Source of the DNA: Rikenellaceae bacterium
GTDB lineage: Bacteria; Bacteroidota; Bacteroidia; Bacteroidales; Rikenellaceae
Length of the DNA stretch: 64,000 nt
NCBI GenBank assembly: GCA_009783565.1
Contig: WRDF01000001.1
Span: forward strand, 124,001 to 188,000
Direction: 5' to 3'
The first letter of the stretch is position 1. Every line of letters starts with the position of its first letter. The notes under the pieces were generated by a model. The model saw only the letters and a program-made list of their open reading frames with translations. It was not told the origin of the DNA and ran no database searches. The position numbers were made by a program, and so were the translations under genes. Positions 5,193 to 55,947 of the stretch are shown here, one piece after another.

Positions 5193-5278
5193 CAATCGTC
5201 ATTGCGAGCCTAAAAGGCGAAGCAATCCAGAGAAAGGCAGATGGATTGCTTCGCCTTTTAGGCTCGCAATGACGATTG
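5193..5278. repeat. Long perfect inverted repeat, GTCATTGCGAG family (copy 1)
   Basis: The arms 5193-5229 and 5242-5278 are perfect 37-base reverse complements around a 12-base loop. The core CGTCATTGCGAG...GAAGCAATCCA is shared with copies at 14892, 21427, 53609 and 62855. The copy lies between convergent genes leuS and the ROK kinase. Confidence 0.95.
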
Positions 5279-14911: not shown

Positions 14912-14973
14912 AGCCCAAAGCAATCCATAAGAAAAATCACTGGATTGCTTCGCCTTTCAGGCTCGCAATGACG
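14892..14973. repeat. GTCATTGCGAG inverted repeat (copy 2), overlapping the lysA 3' end
   Basis: The left arm CGTCATTGCGAGGGCTGTAA... and right arm TGGATTGCTTCGCC...CGCAATGACG are imperfect complements; the outer ends pair and the centres differ, as if arms of two subtypes were combined. The left arm lies inside lysA and supplies its stop codon at 14909-14911. Confidence 0.9.
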
Positions 14974-15471: not shown

Positions 15472-16608
15472 CTATTTATTTTCGTATACCACCTTTATAT
15501 ACGCTGCGTTGCGAAGCTGAGGAAAGAGGTTGTGGAGCATCCACTGATATGCGCGGCCGCCGCCAAGACGCATCAGCTCGCTATGTCGGCCCGTATTGCG
15601 CCCCGAATCCCACGCCGGCGTGTTGTCTATAATGTCTATCACGCGCTCCCCGTCAGGCATTTCCGATTCGGCGACCAGCTGACGCAGTCCTGCCCAATCT
15701 ATACCGCCGTTGTAAATGTTGATACGGTGCGGCGAAATACCGGTGTTCGCGACAAGAAAATCGCGCATCGCCACGGCGCGTTCCCACGCTATACGGTCGT
15801 TCACGGCTGCCGATCCTTCCGGTGAGGCGAACCCCGCAAGCACTATGCGTACGATGCTGCTGTCGTCCGACTCCATGATCGCCCGCACGGCCGAGACCAT
15901 ATCGACCAGATTGCGGTTGTTGTCGGCAAAATAACGTTCGACCGTACGGCTGCCCTGTCGGAAATGCACCGTGAGCGATCCTCGCCGGTTAACGTCGATG
16001 AAACGTTCCACTTCGCCCTGCGCCGCCTGTGTCATGCCGCGACCCATGTCGAGCGGCATGTCGTAATCGAAACGCGTGGCTTCCATCTCGGCGTTCGAGA
16101 CGATGAACGGGAACTGCCGTGCAAGCGTTTCGGCGGTGGAGAGAGGCACTTCGACGATCGTGGTATCGATAGTGTCTTCACCGTATAATATGTTCTCGGC
16201 CAGCAGACCGATGCGCGTTTCGCGAATTTCGCCGCATGTCAGGGTATGTCCGCGCAGCACGAGCCGACCGCCGCGCATCCATTCTTCGTAGGATAGTGAG
16301 GCGGAATAGGCGAACGTCGTGGGCTGCTGCTGTGAGCGGGGAGTGCGTATACGGCGATCGAAGGTGAATTCGGGCAACTCGACGCTCTGGTTGCCGTTTT
16401 CCAGCGCGGGGCGCATCACGAGCATGTCGCCACGCCGCACCGTATTATGGTCGGCCGTTACGTAAAACGTCACGGTCAGCGTGCCGTCCGGCATTCGTAC
16501 GAGGCGTATGTCGCTCGCACTAAGCTCGTTGGCAGCCGCGTGCGTAGCCGCCGTACCGCCGATGAGCAGTGCAAAAATCAACAATCCGCCTGTTATTAAT
16601 CTTTTCAT
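15472..16608 (-). CDS. DUF3868 plus OmpA-like C-terminal domain protein (fimbria-associated)
   Basis: A 378-residue exported protein with a signal peptide (MKRLITGGLLIFALLIGGTAATHAA). The N-terminal half (about 35-190) is a beta-sandwich of the type found beside Bacteroidales fimbrial genes (DUF3868); the C-terminal half has an OmpA-type fold with IVLAGFASPEGS and RAVAMRDFL, where OmpA proteins bind peptidoglycan. The ATG at 16608 with AAGGAAT upstream is preferred over the GTG at 16626, which overlaps the upstream stop. It is last in the sigma-FecR-STN/DUF3575 operon. It probably anchors or spaces fimbrial machinery in the periplasm; this role is inferred from family context. Confidence 0.82.
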   Translation of the reverse strand: MKRLITGGLLIFALLIGGTAATHAAANELSASDIRLVRMPDGTLTVTFYVTADHNTVRRGDMLVMRPALENGNQSVELPEFTFDRRIRTPRSQQQPTTFAYSASLSYEEWMRGGRLVLRGHTLTCGEIRETRIGLLAENILYGEDTIDTTIVEVPLSTAETLARQFPFIVSNAEMEATRFDYDMPLDMGRGMTQAAQGEVERFIDVNRRGSLTVHFRQGSRTVERYFADNNRNLVDMVSAVRAIMESDDSSIVRIVLAGFASPEGSAAVNDRIAWERAVAMRDFLVANTGISPHRINIYNGGIDWAGLRQLVAESEMPDGERVIDIIDNTPAWDSGRNTGRHSELMRLGGGRAYQWMLHNLFPQLRNAAYIKVVYENK

Positions 16609-16625
16609 TATTAAATTCCTTGTCA

Positions 16626-17693
16626 CTATTTAATCACATACACAAGTTTCACTCCCACATTCGTGGGGCCGACGTAGGTTTTACGGAAATTCCCCAACGC
16701 ATCGGCGCAACGGTGACACTCGTATTTGTCATGATGCATGAAAGCCACGCCTGCGCCGACGTTGAACTCCATGCCCCAGCGCGCGTTCCATGCCCAATGA
16801 TAACCCCACGACACGCCGCCGCCCACGGCCCGGCCCGCGTAGCGGTACTCACGCTCAAAGAGCATCGGTATGTTCCGCCCGCCGATGTTGTACTGCCACA
16901 AGAAAGCGTGCGCACCGAAAAAATGACCGTTGAAACGCTCGCACAGCCAGTAGCGGAACTCGGTCCGCCATATCCGGTGCGCAAGTTTGCTGTTGTTTTC
17001 ATCCGTGCCTTCGCGCCGCCAGCCATTATAACCTGCCACGAGGTCGAGCGACGTGCGGTGACCCAATCCGATCTCCAATGAAAGGTTCGGCGCAGCGGCT
17101 GCGACACCGTATAATACGTTGGTTTTAAGCAGGACAGACGGCAGTTCGAGCGAGAATTCAACGCCCGTCGCGCGGATCTCCGTCACCATCGGAATGAAAG
17201 TCCGTGCGGGATAGCTGAACCGTCCGTCGTGAGGCGTTACGTTAACTATCGCATCGCGGCGCACACCGGCCGTGCGCGTATTCATAATATTTGCACGCAC
17301 TTCGTCCTCGAAACCGGCGAAATCGTTTCGCACGACAGGCGGTGCAGCCGGCGCGACCCGAATAACCGCCGGAGCAGCAGGCTCGACCGGCGTGAGAATT
17401 ATGTGACTGCCGCGTATCGTCCATGCGCGGTTAGAACCGGCGAACATCTGGTCGAGCGCCTGGGTGAGCGGCAGCGGATTATCGGAGAGCGTGACCGTAC
17501 GTTCGACGTCGAAGCCCGTGTGATTCACGGCGAACAGATAATTCGTCTGCTCGATGATCGTCGCCATGGCGTCTTTTATCGTGATGTGGCGGGCCGGGAA
17601 CGTGATCTGTTCCGTCGGTCTCTGCGCCTGCATCTCTCCTGTCACGAACGCCGTCAGCACAGCGACGCAAAAAAGTATTTTTTTCAACTGCAT
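16626..17693 (-). CDS. STN domain fused to DUF3575 outer-membrane protein
   Basis: A 355-residue exported protein. After the signal peptide an STN (secretin/TonB short N-terminal) domain spans about 27-100 (ITFPARHITIKDAMATII, then QALDQMF), followed by a Pro/Ala linker. A DUF3575 domain follows from about 185 (LLKTNVLYGVAAAAPNLSLE, LHW/YVIK-type end), a predicted outer-membrane barrel-like fold found in fimbrial loci. STN domains normally sit on TonB-dependent transducers and pass a signal to FecR-type anti-sigma factors. Here the upstream genes are FecR and an ECF sigma factor, yet there is no TonB plug or receptor barrel. The combination suggests surface signalling coupled to fimbrial biogenesis (inference). 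Confidence 0.85.
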   Translation of the reverse strand: MQLKKILFCVAVLTAFVTGEMQAQRPTEQITFPARHITIKDAMATIIEQTNYLFAVNHTGFDVERTVTLSDNPLPLTQALDQMFAGSNRAWTIRGSHIILTPVEPAAPAVIRVAPAAPPVVRNDFAGFEDEVRANIMNTRTAGVRRDAIVNVTPHDGRFSYPARTFIPMVTEIRATGVEFSLELPSVLLKTNVLYGVAAAAPNLSLEIGLGHRTSLDLVAGYNGWRREGTDENNSKLAHRIWRTEFRYWLCERFNGHFFGAHAFLWQYNIGGRNIPMLFEREYRYAGRAVGGGVSWGYHWAWNARWGMEFNVGAGVAFMHHDKYECHRCADALGNFRKTYVGPTNVGVKLVYVIK

Positions 17694-17709
17694 TTGTCTT
17701 CCGAAAAGT

Positions 17710-18786
17710 TTACTCTATGTATAAGGTATCGCCCTCGATGCGATATGAGAATAGACAGCTCGTAGCGCTGAGAATGTCCATCGTCTCGCTCAGAGTCTCG
17801 TCGCCTGAAAGAGAGAACATGTAGCGTTCGTCGCCGAGTTCCTTTCGCGTGTTATTGAGCGTGATGCCGTAGCGCGCCGCGATTTCGTCGAGAATCAGAG
17901 ACAACGGAGCATCGTCAAACGACAGCGCGCCCATCGCCAACGTCCATTGCGGCGGTGTGAGTTCATCGTCCGCGAGTGGACGTACATAGATCTCGCCCGT
18001 TGCAACGTCCAGCACAACAAGATTTCCGGCGGTGATATGGCGCACCTGCGAGCGACGCGTTTCGAGCCTTACTTCGCCGTGATAGAGCACAAGCGTGGCT
18101 AATTCGGCATCGGGATGATCGGCAAGCACGAATGACGTGCCGAGAACCGTGACGCCCAAGTTCGGCGATTCGACACGGAATGCCGCCTCGTCCGTTTCCG
18201 TACTCCGCACGTCGAAAAATGCCCGGCCGCCATGCAGCGTCACCTTGTCGCGCGCCTCGTAGCTCAGTACGCTTCCGGCGTGCAGCGTGACGCTCGAATT
18301 GTCGGGCAACACGTGTTTATGATGCTCGTGTGCCGAAGCCGAAAAAACGGCGAGTTCGGCAGGCGCTTGTGGCGCAGAACCGTTATTGCCTGGCTGCAAC
18401 GCATATCGCACTCCTGCAAATACCAAAAGTACAGCCGCCGCACTTCCGGCCGCTATCACCGTCCAACGCCGCCGGGCATTGCGCCGTCGCAAGCCGACTT
18501 TCTGTTTAAGTTCGGCCTTGTGGCGCTGTGCTTCGCGGAGAAGCAACTCTTCCGCAGTTTCATACCGGTGATTTAATTGTCGCAACAGGCGGTGCACTTC
18601 CTCGTCCGGAGCAGAATCCTCAGTCACGTAGTGGTAGAATGCCTTCTCGACGGCGCGCTCTTTTGCGTCTTGGTCCTCCGGTCCGAGCAACCACGCACGT
18701 AGCTTATTTTCGAGTTCGGCATCTGCGCCGCCCGAAAACAATAAATCGGCTAACAGTGTAGCCTTTTCTTCTGCCGAGAATTTCAT
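17710..18786 (-). CDS. FecR-family anti-sigma factor
   Basis: A 358-residue inner-membrane regulator. It has a cytoplasmic sigma-binding N-terminal region (1 to about 110, with basic QKVGLRRRNARRRW), one membrane segment at about 119-137 (VIAAGSAAAVLLVFAGV), the FecR domain (about 160-255: LPDNSSVTLHAGSVLSY, VLGTSFVL), and a C-terminal STN-like DUF4974 domain (SFDDAPLSLILDEIAARYGI). It holds the ECF sigma factor encoded 205 bases upstream inactive until signalled by an STN-bearing outer-membrane protein, here most simply the next gene. Confidence 0.92.
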   Translation of the reverse strand: MKFSAEEKATLLADLLFSGGADAELENKLRAWLLGPEDQDAKERAVEKAFYHYVTEDSAPDEEVHRLLRQLNHRYETAEELLLREAQRHKAELKQKVGLRRRNARRRWTVIAAGSAAAVLLVFAGVRYALQPGNNGSAPQAPAELAVFSASAHEHHKHVLPDNSSVTLHAGSVLSYEARDKVTLHGGRAFFDVRSTETDEAAFRVESPNLGVTVLGTSFVLADHPDAELATLVLYHGEVRLETRRSQVRHITAGNLVVLDVATGEIYVRPLADDELTPPQWTLAMGALSFDDAPLSLILDEIAARYGITLNNTRKELGDERYMFSLSGDETLSETMDILSATSCLFSYRIEGDTLYIE

Positions 18787-18930
18787 TTTTCTATTTTTAC
18801 ACTCTACGTATATATAATACTCGGAACTGCCGTCGAATTGACAGCCGTACTATAACAAAATGCGATACCGGGTCGCAGAACTTGAAAAAGGGAAAGGGAC
18901 GACAATCAAGGAAAGCCCGCAATGACAATT

Positions 18931-18952
18931 ATTTTCCGGCAAGCCGGAAAAT
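18931..18952. repeat. Short inverted repeat (CCGGCAGGC/CACGCGTG family remnant)
   Basis: ATTTTCCGGC-AA-GCCGGAAAAT is a perfect 10-bp inverted repeat followed by ACGCATGTGTGC, resembling the repeat units at 40141 and 54866. The 205-base gap between the sigma and FecR genes also contains a GCCCGCAATGACA half unit at about 18914-18926. Nothing else is visible there. Confidence 0.7.
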
Positions 18953-18991
18953 ACGCATGTGTGCAATAGTTTCGGAAAAAATATTCGTGTG

Positions 18992-19534
18992 TCACGACAA
19001 AAGTCTGTTCTTGATGTTCTTACGTGCACGCGAGAGGTGTTGTGCGGCGTTGTCGGTCGTAATGCCCATCTCGCGGGCTATCTCTTCGTTAGACAAACCG
19101 TCGAAATAGAGCTGAAACACCCGGCTGCGGATTTCGGGCATACGTTCGATGGCGGCCTGAACCAATGTCTTGACCTCTTGTTCTTCGAGGCGTGCGATCG
19201 GATTCTCGCTTGTGTGCAGGCGGTCGTACATATCTTCGACAGTTTTCTCGTGAAACCGTCGTTTTTCGTATATATGTCTCAGCGCACTGTTGCGCGCGAT
19301 GGTATAGAGATATTGCTTGATATTTTTGTCGGGATCGATCTGTACACGCCGTTCCCACACCCTTGCGAAAATCATCTGCGTGAGTTCGGTCGCTTCCTCC
19401 GACGAACCTGTCAGTTTGGAGAGAAAAAGCCTTATAGGCTTGAAGAAATTAAGATACACTTGCTCGAAAGCATCATGATCGCCATCTCTTAACTTCCTCA
19501 GAGTCAATGCGTCTATAACGTTATTTTTTCCCAT
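18992..19534 (-). CDS. RNA polymerase ECF sigma factor
   Basis: A 180-residue ECF sigma factor of the Bacteroidota FecI-like group. Region 2 is at about 10-75 (DHDAFEQVYLNFFKPI, QMIFARVWERR) and region 4 at about 115-170 (RSRVFQLYFDGLSNEEIAREMGI). The ATG at 19534 (MGKNN) is chosen over an in-frame start at 19600, because the -7 box TATCTTTG at 19564 lies between them. It is first in the module with FecR, STN-DUF3575 and DUF3868/OmpA. The TGA stop is directly followed by CACACGAAT, as at several other genes here. Confidence 0.93.
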   Translation of the reverse strand: MGKNNVIDALTLRKLRDGDHDAFEQVYLNFFKPIRLFLSKLTGSSEEATELTQMIFARVWERRVQIDPDKNIKQYLYTIARNSALRHIYEKRRFHEKTVEDMYDRLHTSENPIARLEEQEVKTLVQAAIERMPEIRSRVFQLYFDGLSNEEIAREMGITTDNAAQHLSRARKNIKNRLLS

Positions 19535-21426: not shown

Positions 21427-21511
21427 CGTCATTGCGAGCCTGAAAGGCGAAGCAATCCAGACTTTTTCGAGAGACTGGATTGCTTCGGGCTATACAGCCC
21501 TCGCAATGACG
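21427..21511. repeat. GTCATTGCGAG inverted repeat (copy 3)
   Basis: The left arm CGTCATTGCGAGCCTGAAAGGCGAAGCAATCCA pairs with TGGATTGCTTCGGGC...GCCCTCGCAATGACG. The outer bases match perfectly, while the inner GCCTGAAAGGC and GGGCTATACAGCCC are different subtypes. It lies between GH20 and the UbiD gene, ending about 20 bases before the UbiD start. Confidence 0.92.
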
Positions 21512-28168: not shown

Positions 28169-31100
28169 TTAGAACGAAATATTAAGGTTGAACGAGTAGG
28201 TAGGCCGTAGCGACAGGTTTATGGTCGGAGCAGAGCCGCTCTGCGTCGCCGGGTCTTGACCCCGCAGGCTGCGGTCGGCCACTGTCAGAAGGTTCGTTCC
28301 CGAAAGACCCACATAGATCGACCGCAGGCCGAGCCGCTGGGCAAACTTGTCCGGAACGTTGTAACGCACCGTCATCGCCTGAATTTTCAGGAAATTGCCG
28401 CTCACCACCCGAAGGTCGGAGTTGTCGTACATATCCCAGAGAGTGTTGGCAAAGGCGATCGGCTCACCGTTCGCGTTGGTCATGTTGCGCCACCATGCAT
28501 AGCTGGAAACATCCTGGAAATCTGCACCTGAGATAACGCCAGGAATGTTCGTGTGCCTCTCGTCGCCCGGTTGCCGCCAGCGGTCGAGAAATTCGCGGCG
28601 CACGTTGGCCGACGGCAGCGGAGCCAATGTGTTGTTGGCGGGATTCGCCGTGGAATATAGACGTAGCAGGCGAATCTTCGACCCGATACTGTAAGAGGTA
28701 TTTATCGCCACCGAAAAGCGGTTGAACGCCACCGAGTGCTGGATGCCGCCCTGCAACGTCGGAACGCGTGTTCCGGAATATACCATCACGTCGGCGAAAA
28801 CGTCGGTAGCCTCCATGTTCTGGTATCTGTCCCAAAGGTCGATGCGCTGGTTGTTCACCCAGACATAGCGGTCCGAGCCGTAGAATACCGGCGCGCCGTT
28901 CAGCGGGCTGAGATTCTGGTACTGGTAGGAGTAGAACGAATTCATAGGGCGTCCCTGTATCTCGATCGTGCCGTTGAGATAGTTCTGGTAGGTCACGATG
29001 TTGGTCAGCGTTCTGTCCTGGCGCGCTCCGGCGACGTTGTTGGTCACACGGCCGAAATTGGTGTTCATCGACCAGCGCACGCCGTTCGGGTTATGCCAGC
29101 GGTTGTCGATAAGCGTGATCCGCAGGCCGATCTCCACTCCCTGATTTTCGAGCCGGCCGGCGTTCACCACCCAGTTGCTCTTGCCGTTGATCGACGAGAT
29201 GCTCGTGGTCAGGAATGCGTCGTTCGTCTTTTTATAGAAGTATGACACCGTACCCGCCAGACGATTGCGGAAAAGCGAGAAATCGAGCGTCGTGTTGTAA
29301 CTCTGCGTCTTCTCCCATCTCAGATTGGGGTTCGCAAAGGCATAAATGGTCGATACGTACTCTCCGAAGTCATTGTTTATACCCTCGCGCTGCAATATCA
29401 GCTGCGAAGATATGTTTTCGAGCATGTTGCCCTGATAGCCGAACGAACCGCGCAGCGAAAGTTCGTCTATCCACTGCACGCCGCGCAGGATATCTTCCTT
29501 GATATGCCAGCGTCCCGCAATAGACCATACGGGCGACAGACGGTCGTTGGCGCGCGCCCCGAAGCGGTTGCTCTGGTCGAAACGTGCGTTGGCGTTGAGT
29601 GTATAAACACCCCGGTATGTGTAGGATGCCGTCGCATAGCCTGAGACGCGGTTGGTCAGTTGGTCTTGCCAGACACCCAGCGCGTTGGAGTCTGTCAGCT
29701 GCCACTGTGCAAAAACGGGGTAATCTTCGGCATTGACAGCCGCCATCTTGCGGCCGCGCTCTTTAAGATATCCACGGAACGTGCGGTTCACGCCGAAATA
29801 TTGCGCCGAAGTGATCTCGCTGCCCGCCGCAGCGGTGAAAAAATGATCGCGCCCCTCGTCGAGGAATTTATTGAAATCGATCTGTGCACGGGCCGTGTAG
29901 GCTTTGAGTTCGGTGTTTTGGTATATCATTTCACCACCGAACGGCATCAGACTATAATCCATGCCTCGATTCGCCGCCGGCAACCGGAGTCGCGCAGCAT
30001 AGAACGACTGCTCGCCGTGCCAGTTCTCCTGCGTTGTGTTCGCGGTCGAATATGAACCCGTGACGGAGGCCCTCAGCGAGGAAGATATTCTGTAATCCAG
30101 CACCGCCGTAGCCTTCGCTCCTGCCGAACGCACGTTGAACGACGAATTGTTCATCTCGTTTATGATGCTGAAATCGTGAAAAACATTATTGTGCACCTGA
30201 CGCGGGTAGAACCACAGCGAGCCGTCTTCGTTGTAGGCCGGCAGCGCGCGCGTGGTCTCGTAGGCATAGCGCACCACGTCCACGTCGGTCGGCGTGTAAC
30301 GGCGGTCGCCCGCGTTGGCGTTCATGTTGAAGCGCAGACTCCAACGGTTGTAGTTGGCAACCAGGTTGAGCGTCGCGGTGTAGAGTTTGTTCACCTCGCC
30401 ACGAATTACGCCCTTCGTGTCGTCCATACCTGCCGAGGTGTAGTAGCGCAGATTATTAGTACCGCCCGACAGGCTCACCGTGTGCTTGGTCGAGAGCGTG
30501 TTCTGGGTCAGAAGACCGAACCAGTCGGTGTTTATGGACTCATAGTATCCGGCCCGGCGTTGCATCTCGTCGAACGAAATGCGCCCCGTCCAATAGTCCA
30601 TCATCGCGCCCTCGTAGCCAAGCCAGTGTTCGACCCTGGGGTATTGCACCCGTTTTTCGAGCAGCTCGCGCGAAAAATCGACACGCTCGCGCGAGTTCAT
30701 CATATTGACGCTCGCGTCGGAGTAGTGCGGTCGGCTCGTGAACGTTCCGGAGAACGAATACGATACCTGCGGCGGGCCCTGCCGTCCCTGTTTCGTGGTG
30801 ATGACGATCACACCGTTGGCGGCGCGTGCACCGTAGAGCGCCGTTGCCGATGCGTCTTTCAGTATGGCGACGGACTCTATATCGTCGGGATTGATGCCGC
30901 TGATCGCGTTGCCCACGAGGTTCACGAAATCGAGGTCGTTGATTTGTTCCGGACTGATGTTCACGGGCGATTCCTGAACGATGCCGTCGATAACCCACAC
31001 CGGTTCTTGCGACCCTAACACCGTCGATGTTCCGCGAATGCGCAGACGCGGTGCAGCGCCCGCCTGCCCTGAGTTCTGCATGAAGATCATACCCGGCACA

Positions 31101-31888
31101 TGGCCTTCGAGCATAACGTCGATCGTCTGTAACCCCGATATATTGATATCTTCGCCTTGAAGCACCTGTACCGCGCTCGCCGTTTCGCGCAGGTCGAGGT
31201 TCTGATAGCCCGTTCGGACAATGACTTCCTCGACCTGTGTCGCCGATTGGCGCATCGCCACGTCGATCTGCGTCTGCCCGGTGAACGTCACTTCCTGCGC
31301 CTCCATGCCCAGATAGGAGAAAATGAGTACCGCGCCTTCCGGTGCGGTTAAGATCAACCGGTAATTACCGGCGGCATCGGTCACCGTGCCGATCGGCCGT
31401 CCCTTGACCGAAATCGTTGCACCCGGCAGCGGATTCCCGCTCCGGTCGGTAACCTTTCCGGTTATTTGCACCGTCTGCGCCTGAGGCTGTTGCGGCTGTT
31501 GCTGCGCTCGCGAGGGAGTGGTCGCCGCAATGACGATCACGCCGTCGCGTACCGTATAGGTCAGTCCCGTGCCGCGCAACGAAGCCACGATGGCCTCCTC
31601 GACGCTCGCCCCGTCGACCGCGACATTCACGCGTCCGGCGCGGTCGAGGTCCTCCTGATTATAGAGGAACGTGAACGACGTCTGTTGCTCGATGGCCCAC
31701 AGCACGTCTTTCAAATAAGTGTCGCGCAGTTGCAGGGTCACCTGCTGGCGCACAGCTACCTGAGAGAAGCTCTCGGCATGTACCGTCGCAGCTCCCAGAA
31801 AAATTAAAAGCAGTGTAAACTTCGACATAAGCCACACTTTTACGAATCTGTCCCGCATTCGGGAGTAAGAGTCACGTTTTTTTTTCAT
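28169..31888 (-). CDS. SusC/RagA TonB-linked outer-membrane importer with STN domain
   Basis: A 1239-residue outer-membrane transporter. It has a signal peptide (about 1-38), an STN signalling domain (about 45-125; VTLQLRDTYLKDVLWAIEQQ), a carboxypeptidase-regulatory-like domain (about 135-215; ITGKVTDRSGNPLPGATISV), then the TonB plug (about 220-340, with VDGIVQESPVNISPEQI) and a large beta-barrel ending NLNISF. The STN domain predicts transduction to the FecR protein encoded 117 bases upstream. With SusD it forms the uptake pair of this operon. The basic N-terminus before the hydrophobic core is long but typical for STN-containing SusC proteins. Confidence 0.97.
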   Translation of the reverse strand: MKKKRDSYSRMRDRFVKVWLMSKFTLLLIFLGAATVHAESFSQVAVRQQVTLQLRDTYLKDVLWAIEQQTSFTFLYNQEDLDRAGRVNVAVDGASVEEAIVASLRGTGLTYTVRDGVIVIAATTPSRAQQQPQQPQAQTVQITGKVTDRSGNPLPGATISVKGRPIGTVTDAAGNYRLILTAPEGAVLIFSYLGMEAQEVTFTGQTQIDVAMRQSATQVEEVIVRTGYQNLDLRETASAVQVLQGEDINISGLQTIDVMLEGHVPGMIFMQNSGQAGAAPRLRIRGTSTVLGSQEPVWVIDGIVQESPVNISPEQINDLDFVNLVGNAISGINPDDIESVAILKDASATALYGARAANGVIVITTKQGRQGPPQVSYSFSGTFTSRPHYSDASVNMMNSRERVDFSRELLEKRVQYPRVEHWLGYEGAMMDYWTGRISFDEMQRRAGYYESINTDWFGLLTQNTLSTKHTVSLSGGTNNLRYYTSAGMDDTKGVIRGEVNKLYTATLNLVANYNRWSLRFNMNANAGDRRYTPTDVDVVRYAYETTRALPAYNEDGSLWFYPRQVHNNVFHDFSIINEMNNSSFNVRSAGAKATAVLDYRISSSLRASVTGSYSTANTTQENWHGEQSFYAARLRLPAANRGMDYSLMPFGGEMIYQNTELKAYTARAQIDFNKFLDEGRDHFFTAAAGSEITSAQYFGVNRTFRGYLKERGRKMAAVNAEDYPVFAQWQLTDSNALGVWQDQLTNRVSGYATASYTYRGVYTLNANARFDQSNRFGARANDRLSPVWSIAGRWHIKEDILRGVQWIDELSLRGSFGYQGNMLENISSQLILQREGINNDFGEYVSTIYAFANPNLRWEKTQSYNTTLDFSLFRNRLAGTVSYFYKKTNDAFLTTSISSINGKSNWVVNAGRLENQGVEIGLRITLIDNRWHNPNGVRWSMNTNFGRVTNNVAGARQDRTLTNIVTYQNYLNGTIEIQGRPMNSFYSYQYQNLSPLNGAPVFYGSDRYVWVNNQRIDLWDRYQNMEATDVFADVMVYSGTRVPTLQGGIQHSVAFNRFSVAINTSYSIGSKIRLLRLYSTANPANNTLAPLPSANVRREFLDRWRQPGDERHTNIPGVISGADFQDVSSYAWWRNMTNANGEPIAFANTLWDMYDNSDLRVVSGNFLKIQAMTVRYNVPDKFAQRLGLRSIYVGLSGTNLLTVADRSLRGQDPATQSGSAPTINLSLRPTYSFNLNISF

Positions 31889-32005
31889 AAATTTGTTCGT
31901 TGAATTTTACTTTTGGTTTAGGGGTATGTTCGACATTCACCGGGCGAGGATGTGTCAGCATCTTTCGCCCTTTTTTATTCGGTTAGCAGTGAGGGATGAC
32001 AATTT

Positions 32006-33145
32006 TTATTTAGCGCTCCTTATTCTGAGGTTTTCTCCGTTGCGTTCTATTGCGACGCGGCCGTTCTCGCGGAAGAGGCCGATCAGCGGGTCGAGCGATT
32101 CGTGACGCTCGATATTGAAACCGAAGCGAAGTTCGCGCGCAGCCGCGTCCTCGAACTCGACCTGCACGCCATACTGCCGCTCGATTGTCCGCATTATGTC
32201 TTCCAGCCGTTCGTCGCGGAATCGCAATTTACCGTCTTTCCACGCCGTGCTGTAACTTACGTCCACCGCCGCGACCGTGAACCGTCCATTGGCGGTGTCA
32301 TAGGTCAGCTGCTGTCCCGTCGTGAGCGCGGCCATGCCTTCGATCATCACCGATCCTTTGACGAGCGTGGTGTGCGAGAGCGGGTCGCCGGAGTACGACG
32401 TGACGTTGAACTCCGTTCCGAGCACCCTCACGTCATAATTGGAAGTATGGACGATGAACGGTCTATCGGCATCGGGCGATACTTCGAAGTACGCCTCGCC
32501 GTCGAGTTCCACGCGACGGATATCTTCCTTGAAAGGCACGGGATAGCGCAGCACGGTCATCGAATTGAGATAAACGACCGTTCCGTCGCCGAGCGACAAA
32601 CGAAATGTTCCGCCGCTCGCGACCTCTATTGTGTGATAGGCGGGTTCGCTATTGTTCGCGGTTTCCGGTAACACGAACGTGTTCTCGCCGTAGACCATCG
32701 TTCCGTCCGCAGCTAAAATAGCCGCTCCGTCGCGTCCCGCAAGCTCTATGCGGCTGCCGTCCGGCAATATGACATGCACGAGCGCGGCCTCTTCGGTCGG
32801 CTGCCCGTGATCCGTGAACAGAAAGAGTGCCGCGATACCCAGCGGCAGCAGAATGCCCGCAGCATACTTGCCGATGCGTGCCAGCATCTTTCGGCGGCGG
32901 CTCTCGTGGCGTTTCGCGACGACGCCCGCCCATCCGCTCAGGATGTCGAACTCCGAGAGCTCGGCGCGTTTGCGCAGGCGGTTCTGCTCGTCGGTTATTT
33001 TTTCGTAAAGTTGCGCGTTGTCAGACGATTCTGCGAGCCATTGTGAAAGCTGCCGTTGCTCGTCGTCCGTGAGCGTGCCGGCCATCGCCGCCGCGATGAT
33101 CCGCGATATTTCGAAATAATCGTTCATGTCATTATGGTTGTTCAT
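32006..33145 (-). CDS. FecR-family anti-sigma factor (SusC/D locus)
   Basis: A 379-residue inner-membrane anti-sigma factor. The N-terminal sigma-binding region has TLTDDEQRQLSQWLAES, one membrane segment lies at about 91-108 (YAAGILLPLGIAALFLF), and the FecR domain spans about 125-265 (VILPDGSRIELAG, VYLNSMTVLRYPVPF, VLGTEFNV). A DUF4974 C-terminal domain follows (FRDERLEDIMRTIERQYGV). The start is 33145, or an internal ATG at 33127. It is divergent from the ECF sigma gene at 33227 and lies upstream of the STN-bearing SusC, so the three form a trans-envelope signalling chain. Confidence 0.94.
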   Translation of the reverse strand: MNNHNDMNDYFEISRIIAAAMAGTLTDDEQRQLSQWLAESSDNAQLYEKITDEQNRLRKRAELSEFDILSGWAGVVAKRHESRRRKMLARIGKYAAGILLPLGIAALFLFTDHGQPTEEAALVHVILPDGSRIELAGRDGAAILAADGTMVYGENTFVLPETANNSEPAYHTIEVASGGTFRLSLGDGTVVYLNSMTVLRYPVPFKEDIRRVELDGEAYFEVSPDADRPFIVHTSNYDVRVLGTEFNVTSYSGDPLSHTTLVKGSVMIEGMAALTTGQQLTYDTANGRFTVAAVDVSYSTAWKDGKLRFRDERLEDIMRTIERQYGVQVEFEDAAARELRFGFNIERHESLDPLIGLFRENGRVAIERNGENLRIRSAK

Positions 33146-33226
33146 ACATTACTATAACACAAAAAACTATTTTATGGGGTATGATTTATAAATTTTTCTC
33201 TATTTTTAGCGTTTGATTAGACACAC

Positions 33227-33754
33227 ATGAAACCGCGCACGACAGAAGCCGAGCAGGCCGTGAAAGAACTTTTCGACAAGTTCTATCAGGCTCTGTGCGC
33301 ATTCGCCGCGTCATATGTTGGCGACCGCGCGGCGGCGGCGGACATCGTGCAGGAAAGTTTTGTGAAGTTCTGGGAGCGGCAGACCGATTTCGACAACACG
33401 TTCAAGAGTAAGGCGTTCCTTTATCTCATTGTCCGTAATCGCTGTCTGAATGCCTTGCGCGACAGGGGCGGTGCGCGGCACGTCGATCTGTCGCTGGCCG
33501 AGTCGGAGGATTTCTTCCGCAACACGCTGATCGAAGACGAAACCTACCGCATTTTTTATGATGCCGTCGATCGCCTTTCGCCCGCCGAGAGGCGGGTCAT
33601 AGATCTGTCATTGGAAGGGCTGCGCAATGCCGAAATCGCCGCACGGCTGGGTATCGCCGAGAGTACGGTACACTCGACCAAGAAACTGGCCTACAAGCGG
33701 TTGCGCGAATCGTTGAGAGATTACTACTATCTGGTATCGATTTTCTTGCCGTGA
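33227..33754 (+). CDS. RNA polymerase ECF sigma factor (SusC/D locus)
   Basis: A 175-residue ECF sigma factor. Region 2 includes VGDRAAAADIVQESFVKFWER and region 4 LSPAERRVIDLSLEGLRNAEIAARLGI with VHSTKKLAYKRLRE. It is transcribed away from its probable anti-sigma partner at 32006-33145; the 81-base gap between them must hold both promoters (a TATTTTTA box at about 33202-33209 is the best plus-strand candidate). It presumably activates the SusC/SusD operon when the STN domain of SusC signals through FecR. Confidence 0.93.
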   Translation: MKPRTTEAEQAVKELFDKFYQALCAFAASYVGDRAAAADIVQESFVKFWERQTDFDNTFKSKAFLYLIVRNRCLNALRDRGGARHVDLSLAESEDFFRNTLIEDETYRIFYDAVDRLSPAERRVIDLSLEGLRNAEIAARLGIAESTVHSTKKLAYKRLRESLRDYYYLVSIFLP

Positions 33755-51830: not shown

Positions 51831-52541
51831 TTGAAAAAAATAGACTTTTTCCGCAAGCAATTAACGCTTATTTCACTGCTGGCGATCGTGTGCTTCAAAG
51901 CAGCGGGGCAATCTGTGCCCGCACCGCCGGATGCTGTTGGCGTCGCACTCCCCGCGAGCGCACATACTCCCTGGCTGCATGTCGATGCCCTGCAACCCGG
52001 ACCGAAACCGCTGGCGCTGAACCCCAAGTGGCAGATGGCATTAAAGACCAATTTGCTTTTTTGGGCTGTGGGCGCGCCTAATTTAGGTGTGGAAATTCCT
52101 ATCGGGCAAAGATTATCGGTGGCAGTCGACGGGGCTTATGCCTACTGGCGGATAAATAACCTGTATGCATTGCAGACGATTCAGGGCGGCATCGAGGGTC
52201 GATACTGGTTCTGCCCAGCGGCCGGATTTGCGACAGGATGGAACATCGGGGTATACGGCATGTATTGCAGCCGCTACGATGTGCAATGGAAGAACGGCTG
52301 GCAGGGCGACGGATTCTGGTCAGCGGGCCTCAGCGGGGGATATTCCGCCCCCATCTCGCGCAGGCTGAATATGGAGTTCGGCTTGGCTGCCGGGTACTTC
52401 TTCACACCCGAGGCGAGGCACTACAGCAGGCCTCAACAGGGGCATTTGATATGGGAGGAGACGCGCCGCAATATGGGGCGTTTCTCGCTCACTAAGGTTA
52501 AGGTGAGTCTTCACTGGTTACTCGAAGGAGGTTCGAAATGA
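51831..52541 (+). CDS. DUF3575 fimbria-associated outer-membrane protein
   Basis: A 236-residue exported protein (signal peptide ending FKAAGQS) with a DUF3575 domain from about 65: WQMALKTNLLFWAVGAPNLGVE, GRYWF, WQGDGFWSAGLSGGYS and the end TKVKVSLHWLL. DUF3575 proteins accompany fimbrillin operons in Bacteroidales and are predicted outer-membrane barrels. The start is a TTG; no ATG fits the signal peptide. It is the first gene of the fimbrial operon and overlaps the next gene by 4 bases (ATGA). It lacks the STN domain seen in its relative at 16626. Confidence 0.85.
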   Translation: MKKIDFFRKQLTLISLLAIVCFKAAGQSVPAPPDAVGVALPASAHTPWLHVDALQPGPKPLALNPKWQMALKTNLLFWAVGAPNLGVEIPIGQRLSVAVDGAYAYWRINNLYALQTIQGGIEGRYWFCPAAGFATGWNIGVYGMYCSRYDVQWKNGWQGDGFWSAGLSGGYSAPISRRLNMEFGLAAGYFFTPEARHYSRPQQGHLIWEETRRNMGRFSLTKVKVSLHWLLEGGSK

Positions 52542-53602
52542 GAAATATACTTATAATATTTTTAGCGGCCGTTGCGCTTGCGGGTTGCGACAAGCAGCGC
52601 GACCTGTACGGTATCTCGTCGCCGTTGTTGGAGATCGAGGGCGACTGGCGGTTTTCGCTGGGCATTGCAGAGATGCGCGACGCTACGGCGATGCTTTATA
52701 AGGACGACGGCACGTCGGGCAAATGGCTTTTTCGCGAGCCTAACGTAGTTCGACCGAAAGTCAGTCGCGGGGAATATGACGTGCTGGTTTTCAACGGGTT
52801 GATGTTCAGCGAGCAGGAGACCAATCTCGACGCTGTTTTTTTCAGGAACACCGACAAGGCCGAAACTTTCGAGGCCGTGGCAATGCCGGGCACTCCCAAC
52901 TCGCGCCTTGTGCGCTCGGAAGGCGAGTACATAGCGAGCAACGACATGGAAGTATTCACTTCGGCCGACGGCATGATCTCGGTCGAAGGCGAGCGGGTAT
53001 TCTACATTATATACCGTAACGGGGAAAGGGTCAGTACGAATGGAGGAGATCACGTCGAGGACGAACTGTATCTCACTCCTCTGGCGCGCTCATACTGGTG
53101 TCAGATTATCGTGCACCTGACCAATCCGAGCAATGCGCTGAGCGCAGCGGGATCGTTTCGCGGCTTCGCGGGGTCGGCATTCGCGTTTTCCGGCTTGCCG
53201 TCGCATTTCGATGTGACGCACCAGTTGAGGCTTAACGACCTGCAAATCACAAAAGCCGGTACGCGGGGAGACCCTGACGACGAGGAAGAAGGGACGGTGC
53301 GCACGCCGTGGTTCGTAACGTTCGGGCCGCCGTTGGACGTGCCTGCCCGTCGTTACACGTTCGACCTCACGGTATGGTTGCGCGACGGACAGACGATGAG
53401 CAAGGAATTCGAAGTGTCGCGTGAAGAAATCGAGCGAATCATAGAGCGCATAACGGAATACCGCAACGGCGAGATGACCACGCCGCCCGTCATTGTCCTC
53501 GAATTCTGCATGGAGTTGCCCGAAAACCTATCGGGCGGTTCTATCTCGGTCGATGACTGGGGCGACGACGAACTGATAACCGTTCCGATTAGAAGACCTT
53601 AG
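52538..53602 (+). CDS. DUF5119 (FimB/Mfa2-like) fimbrial anchor lipoprotein
   Basis: A 354-residue lipoprotein (lipobox VALAGC, Cys17, then DKQRDLYG). Two-domain layout: DWRFSLGIAEMRDATAMLYKDDGTSG, the FRNTDKAETFEAVAMPG segment, and a second half with YWCQIIVHLTNPSNALSAAG and FTFDLTV-like strands. It matches the DUF5119/FimB-Mfa2 class that sits beside DUF3575 proteins and anchors or caps fimbriae. The start overlaps the upstream stop, so the two are translationally coupled. A repeat (53609) follows the stop. Confidence 0.82.
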   Translation: MRNILIIFLAAVALAGCDKQRDLYGISSPLLEIEGDWRFSLGIAEMRDATAMLYKDDGTSGKWLFREPNVVRPKVSRGEYDVLVFNGLMFSEQETNLDAVFFRNTDKAETFEAVAMPGTPNSRLVRSEGEYIASNDMEVFTSADGMISVEGERVFYIIYRNGERVSTNGGDHVEDELYLTPLARSYWCQIIVHLTNPSNALSAAGSFRGFAGSAFAFSGLPSHFDVTHQLRLNDLQITKAGTRGDPDDEEEGTVRTPWFVTFGPPLDVPARRYTFDLTVWLRDGQTMSKEFEVSREEIERIIERITEYRNGEMTTPPVIVLEFCMELPENLSGGSISVDDWGDDELITVPIRRP

Positions 53603-53608
53603 ATGCGC

Positions 53609-53699
53609 GACGTTGCGAGGGCTGTAAGCCCGAAGCAATCCAGAACGAAAAACAAGATAAGGCACTGGATTGCTTCGCCTTTCAGGCTCGCAATTACGT
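53609..53699. repeat. GTCATTGCGAG inverted repeat (copy 4, degenerate)
   Basis: Left arm CGACGTTGCGAGGGCTGTAAGCCCGAAGCAATCCA and right arm TGGATTGCTTCGCCTTTCAGGC...CGCAATTACG show the family core with mutations at the outer ends. It lies between the DUF5119 and the first fimbrillin gene. Confidence 0.88.
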
Positions 53700-53716
53700 A
53701 ACATAACAGACAATTA

Positions 53717-53758
53717 TGAAACACACGCGTGTGTTTCATATACCCCGTACGGGGTATA
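53717..53758. promoter_or_regulatory. Two abutting perfect palindromes upstream of the first fimbrillin
   Basis: A 22-base palindrome centred on CACACGCGTGTG (53717-53738) is followed without a gap by a 20-base palindrome TATACCCCGTACGGGGTATA (53739-53758). They end 41 bases before the fimbrillin ATG, where a promoter or operator would be expected. The first is related to the dispersed CACGCGTG repeats, the second is unique in this window. Confidence 0.6.
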
Positions 53759-53799
53759 AAACAACGAATTTTTAACAACTTTAATAAAAACCAAACACC

Positions 53800-54819
53800 A
53801 TGAAAAAAGTACTTTTGGGGTTCGCGGCTTTATCCCTGCTGGCAACGCTGGCAATAAGCTGCAAAAATGAAACTGTTGAAAAACGGACGGACAACCAGAT
53901 CTCGTTCTTCTCTGCCGTCGGTAAGCAAACTGTCGGAACAAGAGCTGCCGAGTGGACTAACGCATCGTGGGTGGCAGGGAACACTTTCCCCGTTCGCGCA
54001 TTTGTTACGGCATCGGGAGCGGCATGGACGACCCCGCAATTCACTCTATCGTTCGACGGTGCGGCATGGACTTACACGGAAGGCGGCGGTGCGATCATGC
54101 AGCCCGGTTATTCTCTCGACTATTATGCTTACTTCCCGATCGCTAACGTTACAGGATTTACAAAACTCGCTTATCCGAATACTGCGACCTTTAACTATAC
54201 GGTGCAGGCGGTTGCCAGCCAGGAAGACCTGATCGCAGCGTCCAGGTCGACAACTCTTCCCGAAGTCGATTTGAATTTCGGACACGTTCTCTCGCAGGTG
54301 AACTTTGCCGTTCTCGGTATTCCGCACGTACAGATCACTGTCAGCAATATCTCCGTAAATGGTGTATCCAATGCAGGTGTATTTACCTACGGATCTCCTT
54401 CAAGCTGGGGCACTCTGACCGGTTCGGCAACATACGCTTATACACCGGTGACAACCACAACATTTACGGGTATGCCTATCGTGAACGAAACCGGTATTAA
54501 ATATCTTGGCAACGGCGGCTCGCAGTTTGGCTATAACAATGCCCTGATGTTGATGCCTCAGACATTCCCCACCGATGGAACGGGTGGTAATTTCACTTTC
54601 GATTACGCGATAACGGATATGATCGGCGGTGCGATAGCGTCGAACACGGGCGAAACGGTATATTTCGGCGAGCTCGGTGTAAATTGGGGATTAGGCCTGC
54701 GTTACGTCTATGTGATCGATTTCACGACATTGCTCGAAAGTCAGCCCATTACGTTTACGGTCCAAGTCGATAGCTGGACTAACAGCGGTAATATCGATGT
54801 TGTAGTACCGGAGCCGTAA
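53800..54819 (+). CDS. Fimbrillin-family lipoprotein (Mfa-like), probable shaft or tip subunit
   Basis: A 339-residue lipoprotein (lipobox LAISC, Cys21). The N-terminal beta-sandwich contains NQISFFSAVGKQTVGTRA, the Tyr-rich YSLDYYAYFP and the family signature EVDLNFGHVLSQVNF at about 148. A second sandwich ends NIDVVVPEP, which may act as a donor strand. After lipidation such subunits are cut by Arg-gingipain-like proteases and polymerise by strand exchange; an Arg at GTRA (about 49) is a candidate site. It is separated from DUF5119 by a repeat and two palindromes, so it may be separately promoted. Confidence 0.85.
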   Translation: MKKVLLGFAALSLLATLAISCKNETVEKRTDNQISFFSAVGKQTVGTRAAEWTNASWVAGNTFPVRAFVTASGAAWTTPQFTLSFDGAAWTYTEGGGAIMQPGYSLDYYAYFPIANVTGFTKLAYPNTATFNYTVQAVASQEDLIAASRSTTLPEVDLNFGHVLSQVNFAVLGIPHVQITVSNISVNGVSNAGVFTYGSPSSWGTLTGSATYAYTPVTTTTFTGMPIVNETGIKYLGNGGSQFGYNNALMLMPQTFPTDGTGGNFTFDYAITDMIGGAIASNTGETVYFGELGVNWGLGLRYVYVIDFTTLLESQPITFTVQVDSWTNSGNIDVVVPEP

Positions 54820-54834
54820 TCCATACTGAATTTT

Positions 54835-54903
54835 GGTCTGCGGGGCCTGACCGCCCCGCAGGTCGCACACACGTGTGTGTTTTCCGGCCTGCCGGATGAC
54901 ATA
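54835..54903. repeat. Hairpin and CACACGTGTG/CCGGCCTGCCGG repeat unit after fimbrillin 1
   Basis: A 9-bp stem CTGCGGGGC/GCCCCGCAG (54838-54861) is followed by the palindrome CACACACGTGTGTG (54866-54879) and TCCGGCCTGCCGGA (54883-54896), then TGACAT. The last two are the CACGCGTG/CCGGCAGGC family. There is no T-run after the first stem. Confidence 0.75.
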
Positions 54904-54948
54904 ATATAAAACACACGCGCAGAGCATAGCGACAAATTATATAGACCG

Positions 54949-55926
54949 ATGAGAATACGAAACATAATACTGCTGTTGCTTGCCGCCGCCCTCTTCGCAG
55001 GGTGCGGGGAGGAGTTGATCGAAACGAGAAACGCAAACATCATCGAATTCTCGCCGTTCCGCTCCACTTCGTTCACGCGCGGCATTGCAGTGAATAACCC
55101 TGCCGATATAGCAGCGCAGGGCGGTTTCAAGGTCTGGGGTTACCGTCACACCGGAACATGGTTGGGCAGTGGCGTCACGCTGTTCGACGGCACGACCGTA
55201 ACAAGCACGGACGGCGGCGTGACATGGAGCTACGGCACACCTGTTCACTGGCCGATGAACGAACTCGTCTCATTCTTCGGCTACGCTCCGGCGAGCGCTG
55301 CGGGAGTCGTCACTGTACCGATCGGAACTCCTCCTCAACTGATCTGTGAAGTAGCTGTCGATCCGGCGGCTCAGATAGACCTGCTCATTGCCGTGCCGCA
55401 ACTCGACCGGCACGGATACATACCGGTGGAGATGAACTTCCGGCATGTGCTGTCACGTGTCACGTTTTCGGCGCGCAAAGCCGCAGGGGTCACGGCGGAG
55501 ATACGGATCTCGAAGATCGAACTCCGCAACCTTTATCGCTTCGGTACGACAGATTTTATGACTCACGTTTGGACGCCTACCGGAGTTAGTTCGAATTTTG
55601 TGCTGACCACCGCCGCGGGGTTATTGGAAAACACGGCATTGACGACTTCAAGCCAGATGCTCTCGACCACGGCGGGAACAATGTTCATGATGCCGCAGAC
55701 GCTGGTGTCACGGCCCGGAGGCTCGCCACCCGATGCCGAGCTTTGGGTGACTTTCACCGCGCACGGTTATGAGTTCGAGTACATGGTATCGACGTTCCCG
55801 TCGGCAGCGTGGCAATCGGGAGTGTCATATAACTATGAATTGCTGCTGGATGGCTTCACGGTAGTGGCGATCATACGCGGCGAGTTGGAAAACCCCATCA
55901 CGGGACCCGGTTGGGGAAGTTATTAG
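54949..55926 (+). CDS. Fimbrillin-family lipoprotein (second)
   Basis: A 325-residue lipoprotein (lipobox LFAGC, Cys19). It has IIEFSPFRSTSFTRGIA (candidate Arg cleavage site), GTPVHWPMNELVSFFGYAP, the signature VEMNFRHVLSRVTFSARK at about 160 and the FMMPQTL segment. This is the Mfa-like/fimbrillin fold. It is followed by the glycine-rich fimbrillin after 21 bases, so the two are co-transcribed. It is probably a minor or tip-proximal fimbrial subunit. Confidence 0.85.
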   Translation: MRIRNIILLLLAAALFAGCGEELIETRNANIIEFSPFRSTSFTRGIAVNNPADIAAQGGFKVWGYRHTGTWLGSGVTLFDGTTVTSTDGGVTWSYGTPVHWPMNELVSFFGYAPASAAGVVTVPIGTPPQLICEVAVDPAAQIDLLIAVPQLDRHGYIPVEMNFRHVLSRVTFSARKAAGVTAEIRISKIELRNLYRFGTTDFMTHVWTPTGVSSNFVLTTAAGLLENTALTTSSQMLSTTAGTMFMMPQTLVSRPGGSPPDAELWVTFTAHGYEFEYMVSTFPSAAWQSGVSYNYELLLDGFTVVAIIRGELENPITGPGWGSY

Positions 55927-55947
55927 ATTATCATTAACGGGATAATT

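Follow-up and report, generated by a model that had tools for sequence, protein, structure and literature searches.

The window examined here, a 64,000-nucleotide stretch of a Rikenellaceae bacterium genome (gut-type Bacteroidales; 2.03 Mb in 22 contigs), carries four genes in a minus-strand series at 15472-19534 (coordinates refer to positions in the window). They encode an extracytoplasmic function (ECF) sigma factor, a FecR-type regulator, a fusion of an STN signalling domain to a DUF3575 beta-barrel, and an OmpA-like protein. Together they probably constitute a surface-signalling module of the FecI/FecR type, in which the transducer is a plug-less, eight-stranded DUF3575 barrel with a tethered STN domain that reports on fimbrial assembly. 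The combination of sigma factor, FecR and STN-DUF3575 is a conserved module, and its relatives in other genomes occur within fimbrial operons, which suggests that cells may be reading the state of their own fimbriae. Each of the four genes has an intact open frame at the place given in the first-pass annotation of this DNA.

Domain structure of the STN-DUF3575 fusion

Pfam assigns residues 186-354 of the fusion to DUF3575 (1.1e-49) and residues 52-102 to STN (1.9e-6), the latter at 28.0 bits, just below the cut-off of 28.4. No plug or TonB-receptor domain was found in the fusion by Pfam, and a TonB box was not searched for. An AlphaFold2 model based on a 54-sequence alignment (A7) has a mean predicted local distance difference test (pLDDT) score of 81.7 and is made up, in order, of a signal peptide, the STN domain, a tether and the barrel (Table 1). 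The STN domain is modelled at a pLDDT of about 95, and residues 25-107 match the periplasmic signalling domain of PupA (2a02) in VIA-align with a Z score of 8.2, covering 80 of 82 residues at 2.8 A. The tether is mostly below 60, and below 50 at residues 138-155 and 158-181. It is followed by eight strands between residues 187 and 354, mostly above 90, and this part matches the barrels of OprF, OmpA and OmpW with Z scores of 12-13. These fold assignments rest on VIA-align Z scores and not on Foldseek, which returned nothing for the model at E 0.001 or better (best 5.5e-3).

A hidden Markov model (HMM) built solely from the 23 STN domains of long receptor frames detects the window STN domain at 4.8e-14. 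This receptor-only HMM gives 17 fused domains 7e-6 or better and 34 other long N-terminal extensions of DUF3575 proteins 0.038 or worse. Of the L063/L065/L317 type, three members are borderline or missed. The earlier expectation that the N-terminal region folds as an STN domain is borne out by the model, the PupA match and the HMM, and the STN assignment is firm by predicted structure although it is sub-threshold in Pfam. A C-terminal lysine was considered as a mark of STN fusions and rejected, as 93 of 166 STN-less proteins likewise end in this residue.

Table 1. Location of the module genes and of the domains of the fusion protein in the window.
Feature	Position	Strand	Evidence
ECF sigma factor, FecI-like, 180 aa	18992-19534	-	Pfam Sigma70_r4_2 2e-15, Sigma70_r2 9.5e-11
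FecR-type sigma regulator, 358 aa	17710-18786	-	Pfam FecR 4.2e-11, FecR_C 9.4e-11; PDB 4m0n
STN-DUF3575 fusion, 355 aa, proposed outer-membrane transducer	16626-17693	-	Pfam DUF3575, STN; AlphaFold
STN signalling domain (fusion residues 28-105)	17379-17612	-	pLDDT, PupA fold match, receptor-STN HMM
Flexible linker (fusion residues 106-183)	17145-17378	-	low pLDDT
Eight-stranded DUF3575 beta-barrel without plug (fusion residues 184-355)	16629-17144	-	model; OprF/OmpA/OmpW matches
DUF3868-like N-terminal beta domain and OmpA-like C-terminal domain, 378 aa	15472-16608	-	Pfam OmpA; iterated search

Linkage of STN to FecR and sigma factor genes

DUF3575 open reading frames (ORFs) were pooled from named genomes and from samples of the order (393 genomes) and the family (120 genomes), giving a unique set of 196 of which 20 carry an STN domain. 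All counts are lower bounds, since scoring was confined to a few top candidates per genome (five in one sample), and natural frequencies are not readable from them as loci with long frames were fetched deliberately. In 18 of the 20 fusions the same strand carries a FecR gene at most 300 bp upstream, and in 19 there is a sigma factor gene no more than 3 kb upstream (divergently oriented in L182). Among the 176 STN-less proteins, 99 have at least 2.5 kb of upstream sequence, and FecR was found within 3 kb of only one of these (L317 8695), which is itself the gene after an STN fusion. The Fisher value for this association (4e-18) is descriptive only, the rows being related and partly picked by frame length. 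The first-pass annotation had proposed testing the architecture for linkage to ECF/FecR. One further protein among the 176, L149, matches weakly and only in part, and its 605-aa frame is divergent.

The STN labels of L063, L065 and L305/L317 rest on a seed (STN2) taken from a FecR neighbour. Dropping them leaves 17 fusions, of which L179 and L196 are without FecR, and when labels are taken from the receptor-only HMM at 7e-6 or better, 15 of 17 proteins have FecR. Scores of the divergent members with this HMM were 6.8e-6 (L071), 3.1e-4 (L065), 7.5e-4 (L305) and 1.6 (L063, called STN by alignment and context alone). A profile of nine fused STN domains (A6) matched a profile of the N-termini of L063, L065, L071 and L305/L317 (A5) at E 9e-4, with a probability of just 23%.

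The scan of named genomes yielded 80 loci, and eight of them are STN fusions, from Dysgonomonas mossii DSM 22836 (L151), Alistipes (L164, L175), Odoribacteraceae (L179, L196), Mediterranea (L181), a Bacteroidia bacterium (L182) and a Rikenellaceae bacterium (L188). In a sample of the phylum, six of 395 genomes matched at 1e-40, all from the same order, and the STN part was present in the genome of the window only.

Fimbrial context and candidate target operons

Of the 20 fusions, 15 have fimbrillin-type genes no more than 4.5 kb away, or 15 of the 17 that are assessable, the sequences of L071, L164 and L179 ending 87, 777 and 1301 bp downstream. The D. mossii module includes the Pfam families Fimbrillin_C, P_gingi_FimA and Mfa2, and the G408 operon runs from sigma factor through FecR, STN-DUF3575 and DUF3868/OmpA to mfa1-type and Mfa2-type genes. 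The genome of the window has seven DUF3575 proteins and 21 FecR genes were seen in it (24 FecR_C matches, three of them within long receptor frames), two of which precede a DUF3575 fusion. One of these is in the window. The other is in a paralogous locus on contig C4 (L012), where a sigma factor, FecR and a single STN-OmpA-DUF3575 protein are followed on the same strand by six lipoprotein-like genes, the first two being DUF5119 and an Mfa_like_1 fimbrillin by Pfam. Because this single chain holds what the window splits into two proteins, the OmpA-like partner can be tied to the signalling barrel. The link to fimbriae proposed by the first-pass annotation thus holds for the module as a class.

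Other layouts of the same parts occur. In L317 (7469-9294) an STN-DUF3575 fusion is followed by a plain DUF3575 gene, DUF3868/OmpA and fimbrillin-type genes, so that signalling and structural copies of the barrel adjoin, and in L316 (8429-16630) a single intergenic region separates the sigma factor operon from a fimbrial operon that runs the opposite way. The genome of the window also has intact DUF3575-DUF3868/OmpA pairs on contigs C14 and C6 (loci L008, 888-2965, and L010, 2076-3836) for which no adjacent fimbrillin-type gene was found, and such a pair alone is therefore no proof of a fimbria.

Since fimbrial genes do not adjoin the module in the window, its output would lie elsewhere, most plausibly in a fimbrial operon on contig C8. 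As judged by sequence similarity, this operon holds the closest relatives in the genome of both the window DUF3575 (48%, 3e-61) and the OmpA-like protein (42%), and it is of the Mfa1/Mfa2 class that usually accompanies DUF3868-bearing modules. The operon at 51831-57753, which the first-pass annotation had suggested as the target, appears to be the poorest candidate. It belongs to the DUF5119/Mfa_like_1 class, which in the survey is paired with OmpA-DUF3575 proteins, and its DUF3575 is the weakest match to the window barrel among the six others in the genome (E 5e-7, 31%).

Evolution of the module

In a carefully built barrel tree the STN label requires six changes, three of them forced by starred branches, compared to 17.9 in shuffles, and a single clade of STN barrels is rejected (approximately unbiased test, p 0.00079). 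Because the STN barrels do not form one clade, the joining of STN to the barrel has probably recurred, although change counts do not separate gains from losses. The barrel rows were sampled to include 14 of 30 OmpA-type and 45 plain barrels; the long rows L213 5530 and L074 were left out of the careful tree, and the plain barrels of the genome of the window were not added as a set. A quick tree has a main clade of 13, with the Dysgonomonas pair, the L065/L071 pair, L063 and L317 outside it, and places the C4 type among OmpA-DUF3575 barrels. The window barrel pairs with that of G408 (98% in the Shimodaira-Hasegawa-like approximate likelihood ratio test, quick tree).

The regulatory genes show a similar pattern. 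FecR genes of the module cluster, requiring four changes against a shuffled mean of 11.7 (0 of 500; 13 module, 36 receptor-linked and 3 unlabelled rows), as do its sigma factor genes, with four changes against 17.4 (quick tree, 21 module rows of 59), and long branches were flagged in both trees. There is about an even chance that the Bacteroidales have repeatedly made the DUF3575 barrel a TonB-independent transducer that converts fimbrial assembly state into transcription, a pilus-assembly checkpoint put together from the parts of nutrient-uptake signalling.

Proposed signalling mechanism and comparison with known systems

In published descriptions, FecR-dependent surface signalling begins at a TonB-dependent receptor whose plug is moved by the ligand, and in a review (PMC9249621) the plug and the TonB box of the receptor carry the signal. 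PMC11637429 describes STN domains that interact with one another, and an anti-sigma factor with an STN-like C-terminal subdomain. The N-terminal STN domain of the window fusion, on its disordered tether of about 78 residues, would dock in the periplasm on FecR, at its STN-like C-terminal domain, much as PupB and FoxA dock on PupR and FoxR. As an eight-stranded barrel has no plug, the signal would have to arise where the barrel or tether touches other assembly parts, or from the presence of the barrel in the membrane. Fimbrial assembly is the simplest input, because STN-less DUF3575 proteins ordinarily accompany these fimbriae. The barrel and its DUF3868/OmpA partner would belong to the fimbrial outer-membrane assembly, the state of which (subunits in transit, or a finished or blocked fimbria) would alter the contact between STN and FecR. 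FecR would then be processed or released and the sigma factor would transcribe its own operon and with it any fimbrial genes that come next; the window module would act on the DUF3868/OmpA gene and on a distant fimbrial operon, most plausibly the Mfa1/Mfa2-type operon on C8.

The module resembles Fec-type systems (FecA/FecR/FecI, PupB/PupR/PupI and FoxA/FoxR/FoxI) in its adjacent ECF sigma factor, its single-pass FecR with an STN-like C-terminus and its outer-membrane protein with an N-terminal STN domain. It differs in its transducer, an eight-stranded barrel in which neither a plug nor TonB receptor domains were found, and in being linked to fimbrial genes instead of a nutrient importer. The first-pass annotation had the barrel replacing the TonB receptor as sensor; this holds as far as position is concerned, which is that of the TonB receptor in the other sigma/FecR pairs of the genome, and what the barrel would sense is as proposed above. 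SusC-type TonB-dependent transducers of Bacteroidota occur in the same genome with the same FecR and sigma factor families, and it is their STN domains that give the HMM detecting the fused ones. Their receptors, however, are about 1100-1250 aa compared to 355 aa for the fusion, and in DUF3575 modules the FecR and sigma factor genes group separately from most of those linked to receptors. An ordinary set of sigma factor, FecR and TonB-dependent receptor occurs in the window itself (28169-33754), with a 1239-aa receptor frame that carries STN, and provides a comparison close at hand.

Dma proteins (PMC13088901) show that in Bacteroidota a tether can connect an outer-membrane barrel with a sigma factor, and they likewise place sigma control under a barrel on a disordered tether without a TonB receptor. 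Dma is a single polypeptide of anti-sigma domain, helix, tether and barrel in that description, whereas in the window anti-sigma factor and barrel are separate genes whose products would meet through STN domains. Relatives of the module share with Mfa1/FimA-type fimbrial operons a single series of DUF3575, DUF3868/OmpA, Fimbrillin_C and Mfa2 genes, and they depart from them in the STN domain on the barrel and the sigma/FecR pair in front; the window copy additionally lacks adjoining fimbrillins. DUF3575 and DUF3868 appear as names in expression lists in PMC10434189. Neither this architecture nor a dedicated assembly-linked regulator of Mfa1/FimA-type fimbriae was found described in listings of literature pairing STN, FecR, ECF, fimbriae and Mfa, a search that did not extend to most subscription literature and bioRxiv preprints. 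A plug-less eight-stranded transducer must signal in another way than TonB receptors do and offers a natural test of what STN-FecR signalling requires. If the proposal is true, Mfa1/FimA-type fimbriae, which are common in gut and oral Bacteroidales, would gain a dedicated assembly-linked regulator.

Observations against the proposal and alternative explanations

Several observations weigh against signalling of fimbrial assembly through STN and FecR. The two Odoribacteraceae modules (L179 and L196) keep the sigma factor and STN-DUF3575 without FecR, so that STN may have a different partner there. Between the two genes they have a conserved micro-ORF of about 55-65 residues (about 2052-2249 in L179 and 2723-2890 in L196) with no evident membrane segment as read by eye, perhaps a bare anti-sigma domain. 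Two assessable fusions, those of the window and of L065 (the latter with more than 7 kb of flank on either side), have no fimbrillin-type gene within 4.5 kb. A copy from the same genus (L103, 6171-9784) has FecR and DUF3868 frameshifted into overlapping frames and no adjoining sigma factor gene, reflecting decay or an assembly error. The phylogenetically corrected pair test, with just three pairs on starred branches, carries little weight either way (p 0.25). Finally, no shared promoter motif was found among 4+4-base dyads upstream of 13 module sigma factor genes (14 regions extracted, one near-copy dropped), the best, a T-run dyad, occurring in at most six sequences compared to 4-5 in shuffles, and the transcriptional link from the sigma factor to a fimbrial operon suggested by the first-pass annotation found no promoter evidence in this search.

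The Odoribacteraceae modules could be explained if STN were structural, like the N0 domain of secretins, and docked DUF3868/OmpA or another assembly protein while FecR and the sigma factor merely set expression. STN domains are found in secretins, and profile A6 matches PilQ chains weakly (0.02-0.6). These come after PupA (4.8e-4) and the ferripyoverdine receptor (5.3e-4), however, so that the nearest solved sequences are receptor signalling domains; moreover, STN-less DUF3575 proteins also accompany DUF3868, while it is FecR that STN tracks. We regard a structural STN as quite unlikely.

The same module might respond to something other than fimbrial assembly, the barrel binding a surface ligand (a glycan, a neighbouring cell or envelope stress) and fimbrial genes being only its output, which would suit module cores that stand apart from fimbriae, as in the window and L065. 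Of the STN-less DUF3575 genes that are assessable, 92 of 112 have fimbrillin-type genes nearby, which argues that the barrel is fimbrial machinery and not a separate receptor, and we consider a ligand of this kind unlikely, if still worth weighing. The window copy might also be a relic that has lost its fimbrial genes and no longer regulates a fimbria, as the missing fimbrillin and the state of L103 would allow. Its four genes are nevertheless intact with conserved domains, and the intact pairs on C14 and C6 likewise have no adjacent fimbrillins, which makes a relic quite improbable. Signalling of fimbrial assembly by the STN-bearing barrel remains our preferred explanation.

A block around ACCGTGCGT upstream of the sigma factor gene is shared between D. 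mossii (L151, 6883-7300) and G133 (L059, 5247-5664), conserved in otherwise diverged DNA, and is a candidate sigma-dependent promoter.

Other module proteins and surroundings of the locus

The window FecR has a cytoplasmic N-terminus, a hydrophobic stretch near residues 110-129 (read from the sequence) and periplasmic FecR and STN-like FecR_C parts, and it matches PDB 4m0n, a putative anti-sigma factor, at 5e-9. Within the sample, the window sigma factor comes closest to the one in the G408 fimbrial module (39%). The OmpA-like protein adjoining DUF3575 had been labelled DUF3868/OmpA. Its OmpA-like part stands (Z 11 to 3td3; Pfam OmpA 2.4e-5, just below cut-off), but Pfam gives no DUF3868 match at E up to 1. 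This accessory protein is therefore below the Pfam DUF3868 threshold, and its relationship to DUF3868 comes from an iterated search among the ORFs of this analysis (2e-22) and from the family alignment A10, which joins it with a relative in L059 that matches Pfam DUF3868 at 4.2e-8. Residues 259-277 include the motif G-x-A-S-P-E-G, and across the 41 rows of A10 Ser 262 is invariant and Arg 277 is retained. We take Ser 262 to correspond to the peptidoglycan-contacting Asp of OmpA; going by the motif, members of the family may have another mode of cell-wall binding, or none.

The FecR, fusion and OmpA-like genes are taken as one unit because the gaps between them are only 16 bp (FecR/fusion) and 17 bp (fusion/OmpA-like gene). 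A gap of 205 bp separates the sigma factor gene from FecR and contains a 10-pair hairpin. It was rejected as a terminator, terminator-like sites being at chance level (seven found, 5.6 expected), and the stretch as a whole folds no more readily than shuffled sequence (z -0.32). Downstream, the adjoining gene on the opposite strand is a short ORF that we assume to be related to ribosomal protein L31, and the divergent gene upstream is presumably a hexosaminidase relative. A 31-base repeat occurs in five copies with at most one mismatch (5197-5274, 14943-14973, 21427-21457 and 53668-53698; zero expected by chance), on both sides of the module and also within the fimbrial series at 51831.

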